DNA from: Patescibacteria group bacterium
Lineage (GTDB): Bacteria; Patescibacteriota; Minisyncoccia; Phycocordibacterales; Phycocordibacteraceae
Reading direction: 5' to 3'
Assembly: GCA_028866135.1 (NCBI GenBank)
Contig: JAGWIS010000005.1
Span: 1-36,632, forward strand
Length of the DNA: 36,632 nucleotides
Below, piece after piece: positions 10,402-35,205 of the stretch. The first letter of the stretch is position 1. The number at the start of each line of letters is the position of its first letter. The notes below the pieces were generated by a model that did not search any database, was not told the origin of the DNA, and was given only the letters and a program-made list of their open reading frames with translations. Made by a program: the position numbers and the translations under genes.

Positions 10402-10510
10402 CTTGATTGCTTCCGTATCAGAGGATAAGGAGAGTATAGCCCGCCAGTAGGGGTAGTCAATGAGCTCTTCTTATAGCTGTGGAGAGCGGTTTTTGGGGTA
10501 TATTCGAGCG

Positions 10511-13500
10511 ATGAGCTATCTCGACGGCCTCAATGATGCGCAAAGACGGGCCGTCCTCGCCAAAGAAGGACCCGTCTCTGTTCTCGCAGGTGCCGGGAGC
10601 GGGAAAACGCGCGTGCTTACGACCCGCATCTACCACCTCGTCCGCGAAGGCGTCCCGGCCGAGAAAATTCTCGCCGTCACCTTTACCAATAAAGCCGCTC
10701 GCGAGATGCGGGAGCGGGTGCGCGCCATGCTTGGTGGCGATGGGCCGGTTCCTTTCATCGCCACCTTTCACGGCCTCGGCCGCGAGCTCCTTGAGAGCTA
10801 CGGGAAAGCAATCGGCATTCCGCGCTTCTTCAGCGTCTACGACCGTGACGACTCCGAGAAGGCGATTGGCGCTGCGCTGAAGGCGCTCGACGTGGGCGCG
10901 AAGGAGCTTTCTCCGCGCGCAATCCTCGGGCGCATTTCGCGCGCGAAAGGGGAGGGCATGCGCGCGCAGGAATTTTATGAGAAATATGCGCGCGCCGGCT
11001 TCGGCGCGCGCATCGCTGCGGAAGCCTGGCTGCGGTACGAGAAGACGCTTACAGCGGAGAAAGCGCTCGACTTCGACGATCTCATCGCGCTTCCGCTCCG
11101 TCTCCTCGAAGAGCATGCCGATATCCGCGCACTTGCACAGGATCGCTGGCAATATCTCCACATCGACGAGTACCAAGACACAAACGCGCTCCAAGGAAGG
11201 CTCGCAAATATTCTTGCGGCCAAACACAAAAACTTATTTGTCGTCGGCGATATCGATCAGTGTTTTATCGCTGGTACGGAAATCACTTTGCCCGACGGCT
11301 CGAAACGTCCAATAGAGAAAATAAAAAAAGGTGATGTCGTGCTCTCGAATTATGGAAGCGGAGACGTGCGTCATGCCCGCGTGACACGTGCTTCTTCAAA
11401 AAAAGTCTCGGGCGAACTGGTGCGCATCACTACCCGGAATGGCCGGGTGCTCACAAGCACGGAAGAACACGTACATTTTGCTGGGTATCGGCTCGGACTC
11501 ACGCCCCAAATGCACTTTACCTATCTTATGCACAAACGAGAAAAGGGTTGGCGGCTGGGCGTGTCGCAAACCTATACGAAGGGACAACGCAAACCGATGA
11601 TCGGGTTTCAACAACGATGTAATCAGGAGCACGGGGACTCCGCTTGGATAGTCGGCACGCACGCTTCTTCGCGAGAAGCGCGCATTCTCGAGTACCAGCT
11701 TTCGCTGCGCTATGCAATTCCGACATTGCCTTTTACCGCTCGCAAAGGAAGTTCCGGCGGATACGTGCATGACCAGAAGACACTCGACAGCATATTTGCG
11801 TCGTTTGATACCGAACAGGGGGCGCAAAGATTACTGAGAGATCAAGGTCTTTCGGAAGAGTATCCGCACCATCGAGCGCAAGCGACAAGAAGCGACCGAC
11901 GAAACATTGTTGTTGCTCTTTGCGGGGATCGTCGTGGAGCGTCTCCCATGCATCGAATCTCTATTGCTGGAAGTGATACCGCCGGAAAAAAACTTCTTCA
12001 GGCTGCCGGGTTTTCTGTGCGACTCGCGAAGCAAACTTCTAAAAGCTGGCGATTTGAAACCGCGCATAAAGAATTCGGAGCCCTTGCTGAAGTGATTCGC
12101 CGTCTGCAAGCTATTTTTCCTGCCGCGTCTCTTGTGCGAACAGCCCGACTTGGAGGAAAGAAATCGCGACCAGGAGATGGAAACTCACTCCCATTTCTCC
12201 CAGCTGCGAGTGTACGTCCGGGCATGGTCCTTTTCGATGAAGAAGGTGGATATGATGTGGTGCAAGCTGTTACGCGAGTATCAGCGAGGAATGTTCGCGT
12301 CTATGATCTCGATATCGAGCACACGCACAACTTCATTGCAAATGGCATCGTGACGCACAACTGCATTTATACATGGAGAGGAGCCTCCGTTGAGAATCTT
12401 CTTGAGTTCGACAAAGAATATCCGGAATCCCAAACCATCATTCTGGAGCGTAACTACCGCTCGACGAAAAATCTCGTGGATGCGGCGAATGCGGTCATCG
12501 AGAAGAACAAGAACAGGAAGGAAAAGTATTCGACGACCGAGCAAGCTCCGGGCGAGCCGATCGTCCTTCATATGGCGTATTCCGCCGAGGATGAGGCCCG
12601 CTGGATTGCGCTCAAAATACGGGAGTTGATGAGAAACGGTGTTGCGCCCCTAAACGCGCCGCGAGCTACTCCGAGCGGCTCGGACGCTCTAGGAAGCGGC
12701 GCGTCGGGCGAACAGGCAAAGCCTATTTTAGCTGAAGAAATCGCCATACTCTTCCGCACGAATTTTCAATCCCGCGCGCTTGAAGAGGGTCTCCTCAAAG
12801 CTGGCGTGCCGTACAAGCTTCTGGGCACGCATTTCTTCGCGCGCAAGGAAGTGAAAGACGCGCTTGCGTGGGTGCGCCTTGCGCTCGATCCTTCGCGTGA
12901 GGCGGACAAGATCCGCGCGGCGGCTGCGCCGCCGCGCGGGCTCGGCAAAGTAACGCTCGGGAAGCTCGCGGCAGGACAGCGCACGATGCTTCGCGCCGGC
13001 GAGCTTGCGAAAGTCGAGGAATTCGAGCGAGTCGTTCATGAACTTTCCTCCGCCGCAGCCTCGCTTCCTCCTTCCGAGTTCGTAAAGCTCGTCATCGAGA
13101 AGAGCGGCATGCGCCGCGCGCTTCTGGATGAAGGAAGCGCGGAGGATCGGGAACGGTTTGAAAACGTGGAGGAGCTCGCTTCCGTTGCGGCGCGCCACGA
13201 CGCCACTCCCGGCAAAGAGGGCATCGCCGCGTTTCTCGCCGAAGCCGCGCTTGCGAGCGATCAGGACGAGCTCGATCGTGATGAGAAGAAGGCTAAAACC
13301 GCCGAGGGCGGTTCGCCCGACCTTTCGCCTGGCGAAAGGTCTAGGGGCGTAACGCTTATGACAGTGCATGCGGCGAAAGGTCTTGAATTCGGGACCGTCT
13401 TCGTGAGCGGCATGGAAGAGGGACTTTTCCCGCACCAGGGCATGGGGGAAGAGAACGATCGCGATGAAGAAGAAGAGCGGCGGCTTTTCTATGTCGCGAT

Positions 13501-13657
13501 GACGCGCGCGAAGCACCGCCTTTTCCTCACGCTCGCGCGCGTGAGGAAAATCTACGGAAGCGACTTCGCGTCCGAACCGTCCTCGTTCCTTGCGGATATC
13601 GACCGCTCTCTGATGCTCTACGACGAAACCGGCGGCGAGAATTTCATTGAAACTTAA
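10511..13657 (+). CDS. UvrD/PcrA-like superfamily I DNA helicase, intein-containing precursor
   Basis: LNDAQRRAVLAKEGPVSVLAGAGSGKTRVL, DEYQDTNALQ, GDIDQ/CIYTWRGA, LERNYRST, TLMTVHAAKGLEF, RRLFYVAMTRAK. Confidence 0.95.
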   Translation: MSYLDGLNDAQRRAVLAKEGPVSVLAGAGSGKTRVLTTRIYHLVREGVPAEKILAVTFTNKAAREMRERVRAMLGGDGPVPFIATFHGLGRELLESYGKAIGIPRFFSVYDRDDSEKAIGAALKALDVGAKELSPRAILGRISRAKGEGMRAQEFYEKYARAGFGARIAAEAWLRYEKTLTAEKALDFDDLIALPLRLLEEHADIRALAQDRWQYLHIDEYQDTNALQGRLANILAAKHKNLFVVGDIDQCFIAGTEITLPDGSKRPIEKIKKGDVVLSNYGSGDVRHARVTRASSKKVSGELVRITTRNGRVLTSTEEHVHFAGYRLGLTPQMHFTYLMHKREKGWRLGVSQTYTKGQRKPMIGFQQRCNQEHGDSAWIVGTHASSREARILEYQLSLRYAIPTLPFTARKGSSGGYVHDQKTLDSIFASFDTEQGAQRLLRDQGLSEEYPHHRAQATRSDRRNIVVALCGDRRGASPMHRISIAGSDTAGKKLLQAAGFSVRLAKQTSKSWRFETAHKEFGALAEVIRRLQAIFPAASLVRTARLGGKKSRPGDGNSLPFLPAASVRPGMVLFDEEGGYDVVQAVTRVSARNVRVYDLDIEHTHNFIANGIVTHNCIYTWRGASVENLLEFDKEYPESQTIILERNYRSTKNLVDAANAVIEKNKNRKEKYSTTEQAPGEPIVLHMAYSAEDEARWIALKIRELMRNGVAPLNAPRATPSGSDALGSGASGEQAKPILAEEIAILFRTNFQSRALEEGLLKAGVPYKLLGTHFFARKEVKDALAWVRLALDPSREADKIRAAAAPPRGLGKVTLGKLAAGQRTMLRAGELAKVEEFERVVHELSSAAASLPPSEFVKLVIEKSGMRRALLDEGSAEDRERFENVEELASVAARHDATPGKEGIAAFLAEAALASDQDELDRDEKKAKTAEGGSPDLSPGERSRGVTLMTVHAAKGLEFGTVFVSGMEEGLFPHQGMGEENDRDEEEERRLFYVAMTRAKHRLFLTLARVRKIYGSDFASEPSSFLADIDRSLMLYDETGGENFIET
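11261..12361 (+). mobile_element. In-frame intein (367 aa) in the helicase GDxDQ/xIYxWRGA motif
   Basis: Begins CFIAGTEITLPDGSKRPIEKIKKGDVVLSN (block A), RVLTSTEEHVHF (block B), ends RVYDLDIEHTHNFIANGIVTHN (F/G) followed by Cys+1 of CIYTWRGA. Confidence 0.95.
12647..12735 (+). repeat. In-frame coding palindromic element in uvrD (PLNAP...GASGEQAKPILAE)
   Basis: Shares cccctaaacgcgccg and ggcgcgtcgggcgaacaggc with the KsgA insertion; acgcgcc/ggcgcgt are complementary; it lies immediately before EIAILFRTN. Confidence 0.8.
13297..13341 (+). repeat. Tandem in-frame palindromes in uvrD (aaccgcc-gag-ggcggtt and gacctttcgcc-t-ggcgaaaggtc)
   Basis: Two perfect hairpins encoding TAEGGSPDLSPGERS just before the conserved TLMTVHAAKGLEF motif. 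Confidence 0.7.
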
Positions 13658-24274: not shown

Positions 24275-26422
24275 ATGAATCGGGATTATCCGCTAGAAAG
24301 AGTGCGCAATTTCGGCATCATCGCCCACATCGACGCGGGGAAGACGACCACGTCTGAACGCGTTCTTTTCTACACGGGCAGCCAGCACAAGATCGGCGAA
24401 GTGCACGAAGGCGAGACGACGACCGACTGGATGGAGCAGGAGCGCGAGCGCGGCATCACCATCACCGCCGCCGCCATCACTTGCTTCTGGACGAAGACGG
24501 GCGAGAAAGACAAGAAGGACACGTCAAAGAAATTCCGTTTCAACGTCATCGACACGCCGGGGCACATAGACTTCACCGCCGAAGTGAAGCGCTCGATGCG
24601 CGTCTTGGACGGTGCGATCGTCGTCTTCGACGGCGTCTCCGGAGTGGAGCCCCAGTCCGAGACCAACTGGCGCTACGCCGACGAAGCGGATGTGCCGCGC
24701 GTCTGCTTCATCAACAAGCTCGACCGCACGGGCGCCTCGTTTGAGCGCTCCTACGCTTCCATCCTCGACCGCCTTTCCGCAAAAGCGATTCGCATGCAGA
24801 TCCCTATCGGCGAAGAGGGCGCGCACGAGGGCGTCGTCGATCTCCTCACCATGAAGGCCTACACCTTCTCGGGGAACATGGGCCAGGATGTGGTCGAGGG
24901 CGAGATTCCCGCAGCGCTTCTTGCGGATGCGACGAAGTATCGTGCTGAGCTCATCGAGCGCATCGTCGAGCAGGACGATGCCGCAATGGGCGCGTACCTC
25001 GAAGGCAAAGAGCCGGGCCTCGAAGAACTCAAGAAGATTTTGCGCAAAGCCGTCATCGGCAACGATATCTTCCCGGTGTACTGCGGAAGCGCGCTCAAGA
25101 ATAAAGGCGTGCAGCTCGTCCTCGATGCTGTCGTCGACTACCTTCCGTCGCCACTCGACCTCCCGCCTGCGACCGGCAAGAATCCGAAGACCGGAGAGCC
25201 TATCGAGCGTCATGCTTCGGACGACGAGCCGTTCTGCGGACTCGCGTTCAAACTCCAGACCGATCCGTTCGTCGGCGCGCTGACCTTCTTCCGCGTGTAC
25301 TCCGGCACGCTTTCCGCCGGCTCGTATGTGTACAACTCGACGACGGGTTCCAAAGAACGCGTCGGCCGCATCGTCCGCCTCCAGGCCAACAAGCGTGAGG
25401 AAGTGGAGAAAGTATTTACGGGAGAAATCGCCGCCGCCGTAGGCCTCAAGGATACGAAGACTTCGCACACGCTCTGCGATGAAGCGAATCCGATCGTGCT
25501 CGAAGAAATCAAATTCCCTGAGCCGGTGGTGTCGCTTCGCATCGAGCCGAAGACGAAGGCCGACCAGGAGAAGATGGGTGTCGCGCTGCGCAAACTCGCG
25601 GACGAAGACCCGACCTTCCGCATCAAGACCGACGAGGAGACGGGGGAGACCATCATCTCCGGCATGGGCGAGCTCCACTTGGAAATTCTCGTCGATCGCA
25701 TGAAGCGCGAATTCAATGTCGTTGCGGATGTGGGGAAGCCCCAAGTGGCCTATCGCGAAACGATCCTCGGCTCCTCGGAGGCCGAGGGCAAATACATCAA
25801 GCAGACCGGCGGTCGCGGTCAGTACGGCCACGTGAAGATTCGCATGAAGAAGATGGAGCCGCTCGACCCGGAAAAGAAGATCGCGAAGAACATCACGCGC
25901 GAGGACCATTTCGAATTCATCAACAACATCAAGGGAGGCGTCGTTCCGCAGGAATACATCCCGGCGGTGGAGAAGGGCGTGCGCGAAGCGATGTCGAGGG
26001 GCTTCCTCGCCGGCTTCCCGATGGTCGACATTTCCGTCGACCTCTACGACGGCTCGTACCACGATGTGGACTCCTCTGAAATCGCTTTCAAGATTGCGGC
26101 GTCGATGGCGTTCCAGGAAGCGGCCGGCAAAGCGAAGGCCGTCATCCTCGAGCCGATCATGCGCGTGGAAGTCATCGTCCCCGAGCAGTTCATGGGCGAT
26201 ATCACCGGCTCGCTCTCGGGAAAGCGCGGCCAGATAGAAGGTATGGAAGACCGCGGTATGAACAAGGCCGTGAATGCCAAAGTGCCGCTCTCTGAAATGT
26301 TCGGCTACACGACTACGCTCCGCTCGATGACCGAGGGCCGCGGAAGCATGACCATGGAATTCGACCACTACGACGTCGTTCCAAACAATATAGCTACGGA
26401 AATAATCGCATCCCGTAAGTAA
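24275..26422 (+). CDS. fusA: Elongation factor G
   Basis: [64 protein letters not shown]-terminus [12 protein letters not shown]. Confidence 0.98.
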
Positions 26423-26583
26423 AAGTTAGGACATCGGATGTCCTAACTTTCCTGCGTGTACGTGGTACCGTAACAATATAGCTACGGAAATAATCGCATC
26501 CCGGAAGTAGCGACCGCCTGTCCCGTTTAGATGGCGAGTCCGCGAGCCCATCTAACGGGGACATCATCGCGTCTCGCAAATAA
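26384..26583 (+). repeat. Triplicated EF-G 3' tail interleaved with two palindromes
   Basis: 38-nt tail at 26384-26421 repeated 37/38 at 26472-26509; third tail gacatcatcgcgtctcgcaaataa (DIIASRK*) at 26560-26583; palindrome aaagttaggacatc-g-gatgtcctaacttt between tails 1 and 2; gtcccgtttagatgg/ccatctaacggggac between 2 and 3. Confidence 0.85.
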
Positions 26584-29672: not shown

Positions 29673-29898
29673 GTCCCCCATGAGATAGGCGAAGACGCCA
29701 TCTCACGGGGACCTCCAGCAAATCGCGCGACAGCGATTGCTGTCGCGCGATTTGCGTCCGTAGGGAATCAAGGAGCTTCCGAGCGACTATGATTCCCACG
29801 ACCCTGTTAAATCCCGCTTCGCGGGACATTCGCGAAGCGAATGTATTTAACAGGGTGAGGTTTTTCTAACCTCGCTTTCAGCTCGGAACAAAAACCTC
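29673..29898. repeat. Array of five consecutive hairpins directly upstream of rplC
   Basis: 29673-29712 gtcccccatgagat/atctcacggggac; 29718-29755 gcaaatcgcgcgacagc-gatt-gctgtcgcgcgatttgc; 29763-29797 gggaatca/tgattccc; 29801-29856 accctgttaaat...atttaacagggt; 29857-29898 gaggttttt...aaaaacctc. Confidence 0.85.
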
Positions 29899-30517: not shown

Positions 30518-30619
30518 CACCCCGTTAGATAATTTATGATTAACGACCCGAAAAACAAAAATCTTTCTCAAACCGCTCGCGGAACGCGTGCGAGCTTGAA
30601 CGCTGTATCTAACGGGGTG
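30518..30619. repeat. 14-bp perfect inverted repeat caccccgttagata/tatctaacggggtg bracketing the rplD start codon
   Basis: Left arm 30518-30531, right arm 30606-30619; ATG 30536 in loop; right arm encodes VSNGV. Confidence 0.85.
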
Positions 30620-31348: not shown

Positions 31349-31711
31349 ATGGCACTCTTCGGCAACAAAAAGAAAGAAGTGAAAGAGACGAGCGCGCGCA
31401 AGAGCCACGCCCGCGCAGCCACGCCCGCGCACGGCCTTTCGCACGAGATCGTTCGCGCGCCGTGGTTCTCCGAGAAGGCGCTTATCGGCACCGAGAAAGG
31501 CGTCTACGTCTTTTCCGTGTCGCCGCGCGCGACGAAGGCGGAGATTGCCGGCGCCATCAAGGAAATCTACAAGGTCGAGCCGCGCATGATCCGCGTGGCA
31601 AACGTGAAAGGGAAGACCAAGGCGATGCGCACGAAACGCGGCACCGGGCAGCGCGCCGAGCGCCGCAAGGCCTACGTGTATCTCTCCGCCGGCGAGACCA
31701 TCCAATTCTAG
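31349..31711 (+). CDS. rplW: 50S ribosomal protein L23
   Basis: RAPWFSEKALIGTEKGVYVFSVSPRATKAEIAGAIKEIYKVEPRMIRVANVKGKTKAMRTKRG. Confidence 0.95.
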   Translation: MALFGNKKKEVKETSARKSHARAATPAHGLSHEIVRAPWFSEKALIGTEKGVYVFSVSPRATKAEIAGAIKEIYKVEPRMIRVANVKGKTKAMRTKRGTGQRAERRKAYVYLSAGETIQF

Positions 31712-31839
31712 AAAATGTTATGAATGAGATGAATTACATTTTCTTGAACCCTGTTAAATCCCGCTTCGCGGGACATTGCGAAGCAATGTATTTAACAGGG
31801 TATAAGGTTTCCTAATTCGCTTTGCTCATAACGAAACCT
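31711..31839. repeat. Composite three-hairpin element upstream of rplB
   Basis: 31711-31743 gaaaatg/cattttc; 31748-31801 accctgttaaat...atttaacagggt; 31805-31839 aggtttc/gaaacct. Confidence 0.85.
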
Positions 31840-31842
31840 AAT

Positions 31843-34480: not shown

Positions 34481-34844
34481 GGAAACCAACGAGCCGAACG
34501 TGAGCGAGGCGACTATGGTTTCCGTAACCCTGTTAAATCCTTTCAAATAGCGCATGTATTATGTATATGTACTTTTGTCCGAAAAGGACGGGAGGTTCTA
34601 TACCGGATACAGTGCCAATTTGAAAGGACGATTTGAGGAACATATGCAAGGTCGGGTTGCCTCGACGACAAAGCGTTTGCCGGTGCGTCTCGTATATTAC
34701 GAAGCGTGTACCGATGAACGCGATGCTCGTCATCGGGAGCGTTATTTAAAAACGCATCACGGCAAACAGTTCCTGCACAATCGCCTCAAATCGTATTTAA
34801 CAGGGTGAAAGTTTTTCTAGTTCGCTTCGCTCACAACAAAAACT
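34481..34844 (+). mobile_element. Composite hairpin element with GIY-YIG cargo upstream of rpsS
   Basis: 34481-34523 ggaaacca/tggtttcc; inverted repeats accctgttaaat (34527-34538) and atttaacagggt (34795-34806) enclosing the ORF; 34810-34844 agttttt/aaaaact. Confidence 0.75.
34554..34808 (+). CDS. Small GIY-YIG domain endonuclease
   Basis: [68 protein letters not shown]-terminal YLTG* encoded by the right inverted repeat. Confidence 0.92.
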
Positions 34845-34848
34845 AATC

Positions 34849-35205
34849 ATGGCACGCTCACTTAAAAAGGGACCCTTCGTGGACGCCAAGCTCCTGAAGA
34901 AAGTCCTGAATGCAAAACCGGCTTCCTCCGGAGTGATAAACACGTGGGCGCGTCGCAGCCAGATTAGCCCCGAGATGGTCGGCTTCACGATCGGCGTCCA
35001 TAACGGCAAGCAGCACCTCCCGGTCCTCGTTTCCGAAGACATGGTCGGGCACCGTCTCGGCGAATTCTCGCCGACCAAGAAGTTCATCCGCCACGGAGGC
35101 AAGATGCAGAAGGAGATGGAGGCCAAGAAGCAGGAGGCGGAAATCGCTTCCGCGAAGGCCGCAAAAGCCCCGGCTGCAGCCGCCGCGCCTGCCGCGAAGA
35201 AATAA
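34849..35205 (+). CDS. rpsS: 30S ribosomal protein S19 with Ala/Lys-rich C-terminal extension
   Basis: [63 protein letters not shown]. Confidence 0.97.

Follow-up and report, generated by a model that had tools for sequence, protein, structure and literature searches.

We analyzed a 36,632-nucleotide (nt) stretch of a Patescibacteria genome (the window) and found, at positions 34527 to 34806, an 84-amino-acid GIY-YIG nuclease gene between exact 12-nt inverted arms. The arms, the open reading frame (ORF), and two nuclease-less mini-elements were all present where a first-pass annotation of this DNA had placed them, and the 3' end of the ORF (YLTG*) is encoded by the right arm, as that annotation had read it. 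Its description of the mini-elements as copies in which the gene is replaced by a double hairpin of about 30 nt has to be revised, since the gene-bearing element keeps both inner stems. The full element is a gap-free three-way junction in which CCTTTCAAAT pairs with ATTTGAAAGG inside the gene and ACGATTTGAGG pairs with CCTCAAATCGT, followed by the right arm. Its approximately 280 bp therefore comprise a 12-bp outer stem and two flush inner helices, and gene-bearing and mini copies follow one common plan with two inner stems in each. The coding sequence terminates within the right arm, and its stop codon can share bases with the start of the gene that follows (GGGTAAATG, GGGTGAAT). The bounds previously given to the element hold for the arms, but the inserted unit in this genome is larger by one hairpin on each side (hpA on the left and hpB on the right; Table 1).

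Table 1. Positions in the window of the nuclease-bearing element, the two mini-elements, and their flanking hairpins
Feature	Position	Strand	Remarks
hpA of mini-element 1	29763-29797	+	GGGAATCA/TGATTCCC
Mini-element 1, core	29801-29856	+	56 nt, same arms; between the S10 leader and L3; inner hairpins CCCGCttcGCGGG and ACATTCGCgaaGCGAATGT; missing from the leader of sister genomes
hpB of mini-element 1	29857-29898	+	end abuts the L3 start codon
hpA of mini-element 2	31710-31745	+	AGAAAATGT/ACATTTTCT
Mini-element 2, core	31748-31801	+	54 nt; between L23 and L2
hpB of mini-element 2	31802-31842	+	end abuts the L2 start codon
hpA of the nuclease-bearing element (left flanking hairpin)	34481-34523	+	stem GGAAACCA/TGGTTTCC
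hpA loop of the nuclease-bearing element	34481-34523	+	lineage motif GAG..GCGACTA
Left arm of the outer stem	34527-34538	+	ACCCTGTTAAAT
Inner helix 1, 5' side	34539-34548	+	CCTTTCAAAT; non-coding leader, pairs with codons within the gene
GIY-YIG nuclease gene	34554-34808	+	84 amino acids, UPF0213/Slx1-like fold (Pfam, AlphaFold2, Foldseek, dN/dS)
Inner helix 1, 3' side	34618-34627	+	ATTTGAAAGG; codons for NLKG
Inner helix 2, 5' side	34628-34638	+	ACGATTTGAGG; codons for RFE; no gap to helix 1
Inner helix 2, 3' side	34784-34794	+	CCTCAAATCGT; codons for RLKS; no gap to the right arm
Right arm	34795-34806	+	ATTTAACAGGGT; encodes the C-terminal YLTG
hpB of the nuclease-bearing element (right flanking hairpin)	34807-34848	+	AGTTTTT..AAAAACT; directly 5' of the S19 start codon at 34849

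The nuclease matched PF01541 with an E value of 3.6e-16 (59.7 bits against a curated cut-off of 22.6). This was the sole Pfam match, NCBIfam gave none above cut-off, and no transposase of a known transposase family was found in the element with these two collections. Residues Y5, Y16, G18, R26, H30, and E62 were invariant among 38 members, which places the protein in the GIY-YIG superfamily. An AlphaFold2 model (pLDDT of 91.7) had 1zg2 (UPF0213) and Slx1 (Slx1-Slx4) as its nearest Foldseek neighbors, and the sequence itself matched 1zg2 with an E value of 1.3e-8. Values of dN/dS between close relatives (0.03 to 0.11) indicate strong purifying selection, and a stop codon lay within the nuclease gene in 4 of 80 copies.

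The sequence CCCTGTTAAAT has six zero-mismatch sites in the window, against 0.19 expected from shuffles, and 27 in the window's genome (G000; 694,721 bp in 46 contigs), where the reversed pattern has none. This genome holds 13 paired copies and 1 copy with a decayed left arm. Two of the paired copies, C7 (that of the window) and C10, are about 280 bp long and carry a GIY-YIG gene, while the remainder measure 54 to 56 nt; the GIY-YIG profile was reached or passed in seven other regions of the genome, C10 included.

In the Patescibacteria lineage of the window, the core is flanked by a pair of hairpins in inverted orientation, whose loop is conserved and whose stems vary. The hpA loop motif occurs eight times in G000, where seven occurrences adjoin a core and the eighth adjoins a core with other arms. 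Both flanking hairpins reached threshold in 6 of 16 elements of the window's nuclease clade, compared with 2 of 55 others. We rejected the idea that the variable stems are inverted copies of the target at the S19 site, as the empty leaders of the 20 sister genomes contain neither stem. At one further place in G000 (L269, 1057 to 1237; C46:16756-16936), a core with arms ACCCG.CACACTT, of a further arm family, lies between hairpins of the hpA/hpB type with no obvious gene. Upstream of L2/L3 in the sister genomes G050 and G037 (L078 and L093), palindromic elements with other arms (ACCCGCC.., ACCGAGCACCACTTTTGC) occupy the same ribosomal sites, and a right-hand hairpin of the same kind comes next. 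At L124, 31 nt of host coding flank from the left recurs inverted to the right of the element, perhaps as a product of fold-back repair.

Among 66 distinct mini-elements from 22 genomes, 80% had two flush hairpins, each with 4 or more Watson-Crick bp, compared with 1.3% of shuffled inner sequences. The inner sequences, unlike the arms, diverge widely between genomes. Stem similarity, found in genome G284 only, suggested that mini-elements may arise from the parent by internal deletion. In three nested elements (L245, L251, and L254), one mini-element has another, complete mini-element where its second inner hairpin would be. At L292 (G401 C32), a degenerate mini-element (CCCTATTAAAT..ATTTAACAGGG) lies about 50 nt past a full element within the same AbrB-like gene.

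Exact arms identified nine full elements in eight genomes of the order, and homology identified 80 loci in 85,462 species genomes. We fetched these relatives with two peptide patterns, and NRLKSYLTG is partly encoded by the arm, so that loss of the right arm is under-sampled while the left arm and helix 1 are free of this bias. In the 80 distinct full elements, Watson-Crick pairing amounted to 96.1% in the outer stem, 97.5% in helix 1, and 97.4% in helix 2, against 25 to 33% in controls slid by 1 to 3 nt, and the junction geometry was constant throughout. The clearest evidence comes from helix 1, whose 5' side lies outside the coding sequence and nevertheless changes in step with its partner codons (CCTTTCAAAT/ATTTGAAAGG, AATTTTAAAT/ATTTAAAATT, AATTCAATAT/ATATTGAATT, and others). 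The imperfect pairs of these elements comprised 20 G-T and 24 A-C pairs, with no RNA-type wobble preference. Since constraint on a transcript would spare G-U pairs and there was no excess of G-T over A-C, the structure appears to matter as DNA, and the constraint appears to act on DNA rather than RNA. Searches of Rfam returned sub-threshold chance matches only, none of them on the element.

Matching arms enclose nearly all of the 80 relatives, in many phyla. The hosts on record include Patescibacteria, Bacteroidota (including Ancylomarina sp. DW003), Delta proteobacterium NaphS2, Desulfobacterales, Cloacimonadota, Ignavibacteriae, and others, with Desulfobacterota/Myxococcota also among the host groups of the relatives; most are metagenome-assembled genomes (MAGs), of which single bins may be contaminated. 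Exact-arm mini-elements were present in 21 of 50 genomes with a full element (a deltaproteobacterial MAG with four mini-elements among them) and in 15 of 289 genomes of the order sample without one (p = 7e-11). A random sample of 297 genomes of the order held mini-elements in 21, full elements in 8, and both in 6, where 0.6 would be expected (p = 1.5e-6). A nuclease of full length with 55% identity or more was found in 10 of 22 mini-bearing genomes and in 1 of 30 controls. The other 12 mini-bearing genomes have no close nuclease today, which is as expected if autonomous copies get lost and is also the main weakness. The first-pass annotation had proposed that full and mini copies resemble an autonomous/non-autonomous pair, and these data support that reading on the two points by which it was to be judged: mini-elements are tied to the nuclease instead of being equally common without it, and orthologous GIY-YIG genes keep their flanking repeats.

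The type of arm tracks the C terminus of the nuclease, YLTG going with GTTAAAT, YFTG with GTGAAAT, and FLSLTG, in a more distant group, with ATCCCGTTAGAGAT. Related arm families exist, for example, CCCGTTAGAGAT with nucleases that end in FLSLTG. Mini-elements with second-family arms (CCCGTTAGAG) occurred in 8 of 54 genomes, with 11 copies in a genome of the same genus (G004), and showed no clear co-occurrence with FLSLTG nucleases. Around the L4 start codon in the window (30519 to 30619) lie inverted arms CACCCCGTTAGATA / TATCTAACGGGGTG, which resemble the CCCGTTAGAGAT family. A phage collection had no match and a plasmid collection had one weak match of 46%; one viral contig encoded a 56% relative without arms. 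One fetched locus (L159), and no other, contained rRNA marker sequences.

The earlier suggestion to compare empty and filled orthologous sites could be followed at the S19 leader and at an AbrB-like gene. The S19 promoter and leader hairpin run straight into the start codon (..GCGGGCTTTTCATTACTT-ATG) in the 20 sister genomes, whereas G000 has approximately 367 nt (hpA, core, and hpB) between GGGCTTTTTACT and the ATG. The AbrB-like gene of a Moranbacteria genus is uninterrupted in G401 C28, G406, and G403, while G358, G404, and G401 C32 have it split at a single codon, with a net gain of 290 nt, so that both the empty and the filled state occur, as paralogues, within G401. The element cores of G401 and G358 are identical at 278 of 286 positions (97%) but sit at different loci, as sequence upstream of the interrupted gene in G358 has no match in G401. 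Near-identical mini-elements also sit in unrelated flanks in G366 and G375. Mini-element 1 is missing from the L3 leader of sister genomes, and the L23-L2 spacer is short and without mini-element 2 in most of 29 same-genus loci; two sister genomes have other palindromic elements at the same places in the L3/L2 leaders. A separate hairpin insert in the S10-L3 leader of the window (29676 to 29710; CCCCATGAGATA..CGCCATCTCACGGGG) is missing in sister G028 (GTCCCacgaGGGAC), and its arms resemble those at the GIY-YIG locus L033 of the same genome (CCCCGTGAGATAA).

Most elements occupy TT/AA-like sites just upstream of or inside co-directional genes. A gene start within 75 nt was found downstream on the nuclease strand 32 times and upstream on the other strand twice. 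The ends vary by 1 to 2 nt between sites, and there was no consistent target-site duplication, with TTGA on both sides of two G375 mini-elements and TTCA/TAAA or TTTA/TGAA at most others. At loci L107 to L183, the bases just outside the arms were coupled: TTC-element-AAA occurred 11 times and TTT-element-GAA 6 times, and the remaining combinations 1 and 3 times. This may reflect a conserved mismatch where the outer stem begins.

These sequence comparisons have shown that a discrete structured DNA unit inserts at many sites, with or without a gene, and that its sole gene is a conserved nuclease. The mobility put forward in the first-pass annotation holds for insertion of the unit; that the nuclease drives the movement, and on what substrate, we infer. 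We consider it probable, at roughly 0.6, that the unit is a minimal mobile DNA element with a Slx1/UPF0213-like nuclease that recognizes branched DNA, together with non-autonomous, MITE-like derivatives. The junction would form on single-stranded or supercoiled DNA, and the nuclease would recognize both the junction and the arm sequence and cleave either the foot of the outer stem or the target site. To our knowledge, GIY-YIG enzymes hydrolyze DNA, and no joining activity has been described for them, so host replication or repair would have to complete the insertion; nor do we know of a bacterial transposase role for this class. The mini-elements, retaining the arms and the junction shape, would be mobilized in trans, and a gene end inside the right arm with a stop codon overlapping the next start could allow low-cost residence in operons. 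Arms that track the nuclease subfamily are a candidate recognition code. ANKLE1, another GIY-YIG enzyme, cleaves DNA junctions with three or four arms close to the branch point (PMC7610144).

The main rival is homing-like copying at recurrent gene sites, in which the nuclease would cut an empty target, recombination or repair would copy the element in, the palindrome would be substrate or carrier, and mini-elements would be deletion products copied in the same way. Such copying would account for empty and filled paralogues at one site in a single genome and for recurrence at the same codon of conserved genes across phyla (SN^IAEG and NIAL^KEAYE in four-helix-bundle proteins, WKKV^KGMRD in HepT-like proteins, and the N terminus of AbrB-like genes). 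Most copies, however, lie at unrelated sites that share little sequence beyond TT/AA, and homing alone explains neither why a three-way junction is conserved and present in nuclease-less copies too nor arms that track the nuclease subfamily, and we regard it as unlikely. The hairpins might instead be REP/REPIN-like sequences moved by RAYT-like Y1 transposases, with the GIY-YIG gene as a passenger. Y1_Tnp proteins were present in 23 of 30 mini-bearing genomes (a count that covers mini-bearing genomes only), and the two flanking hairpins are in inverted orientation, as in a REPIN. Against this, no Y1 protein was found in the remaining 7, which are incomplete drafts and include G397 (13 mini-elements), G356 (5), and G375 (three near-identical ones), and no such hairpin lies beside the four Y1 genes examined in G000. 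Movement by Y1 enzymes would also leave unexplained why the arms encode, and vary with, the C terminus of the nuclease in nearly all relatives, and we find it improbable.

A role at the RNA level, with the structure acting in the processing, stability, or splicing of operon transcripts and the nuclease serving as an RNase or maturase, would fit the sense-strand placement by genes and the several copies inside reading frames. The orientation bias can also be explained by expression and site sequence, the mismatch counts run A-C 24 to G-T 20 where selection on a transcript should favor G-U, and Rfam has no match on the element. Splicing in particular was rejected, because the length of in-gene inserts at fixed ends is not constant modulo 3 and exact removal does not always restore the frame. 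We judge an RNA-level role highly improbable. Fixed host regulatory hairpins (terminators or attenuators), with a nuclease gene domesticated near some of them, would agree with the placement of all three window copies in ribosomal-protein leaders directly before a start codon, but this explanation is hardly credible given the empty and filled sites between sister species, the copies inside unrelated protein genes, and the same arms in several phyla.

A mobile element with mini derivatives has several counterparts among known systems. As in pairs of insertion sequences and MITEs, one protein lies between terminal inverted repeats, shorter copies lack the gene, and copies are polymorphic for presence; the element has the enclosing repeats, presence or absence at orthologous and paralogous sites, and shortened copies co-occurring with full ones that mark such pairs. 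It differs in that its protein is an 84-amino-acid GIY-YIG nuclease and not a DDE, HUH, tyrosine, or serine enzyme, in that the whole element, coding DNA included, folds as a three-way junction, and in that no regular target-site duplication was found. The comparison with RAYT (TnpA-REP) and REP-REPIN systems made in the first-pass annotation stands as an analogy only. Both link an enzyme gene to short palindromes that far outnumber it, but RAYT is a HUH/Y1 enzyme rather than a GIY-YIG nuclease, and REPs are separate from the gene, which here is part of the structure. GIY-YIG homing endonuclease genes (I-TevI, free-standing seg, and intron-encoded genes) share the catalytic domain, for some copies the recurrence at conserved gene positions, and nuclease-less versions of the carrier, such as ORF-less introns; the element nuclease, in contrast, has no DNA-binding extension (84 amino acids in total) and no intron or intein carrier, and its predicted model is nearer UPF0213/Slx1 than I-TevI. 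The structure-selective UPF0213 and Slx1 have the same fold and catalytic residues, and we know of none of these nucleases that lies embedded in a palindrome serving as its own substrate.

We know of no described class of bacterial mobile element that pairs a structure-selective nuclease as its sole protein with a coding three-way junction. We rate the element as categorically new in the sense of that combination, with the causal role of the nuclease presumed. The chances seem to us about even that it represents a previously undescribed class, namely, a DNA three-way junction of approximately 280 bp that would encode its own branched-DNA nuclease as mover, with derivatives of 45 to 70 nt moved in trans. 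Known insertion sequences range from roughly 700 bp upward. If confirmed, one 84-amino-acid nuclease and 280 bp of palindromic DNA would suffice as a mobile element well below that size, which would place it among the smallest autonomous transposable elements known. It would also explain many of the small GIY-YIG proteins and intergenic palindromes found in Patescibacteria and in further phyla, and it would provide a testable link between structure-selective nucleases (UPF0213 and Slx1) and mobility. Searches of open-access papers yielded no description of such an element. The nearest report concerns rRNA genes of CPR bacteria, with GIY-YIG ORFs inside insertions that have no match to group I or group II introns, along with short unclassified ORF-less insertions, mostly of <200 bp (PMC11270868). 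Those insertions have CPR hosts in common with the element, and their description includes no inverted repeats, junction, or full/mini pairing.

Two other features of the window were observed. A UvrD/PcrA-like helicase gene (10460 to 13657) contains an in-frame intein, with Hint and Intein_splicing domains between the helicase halves. A 38-nt direct repeat (26384 to 26421 and 26472 to 26509; 97% identical) overlaps the end of the EF-G gene.
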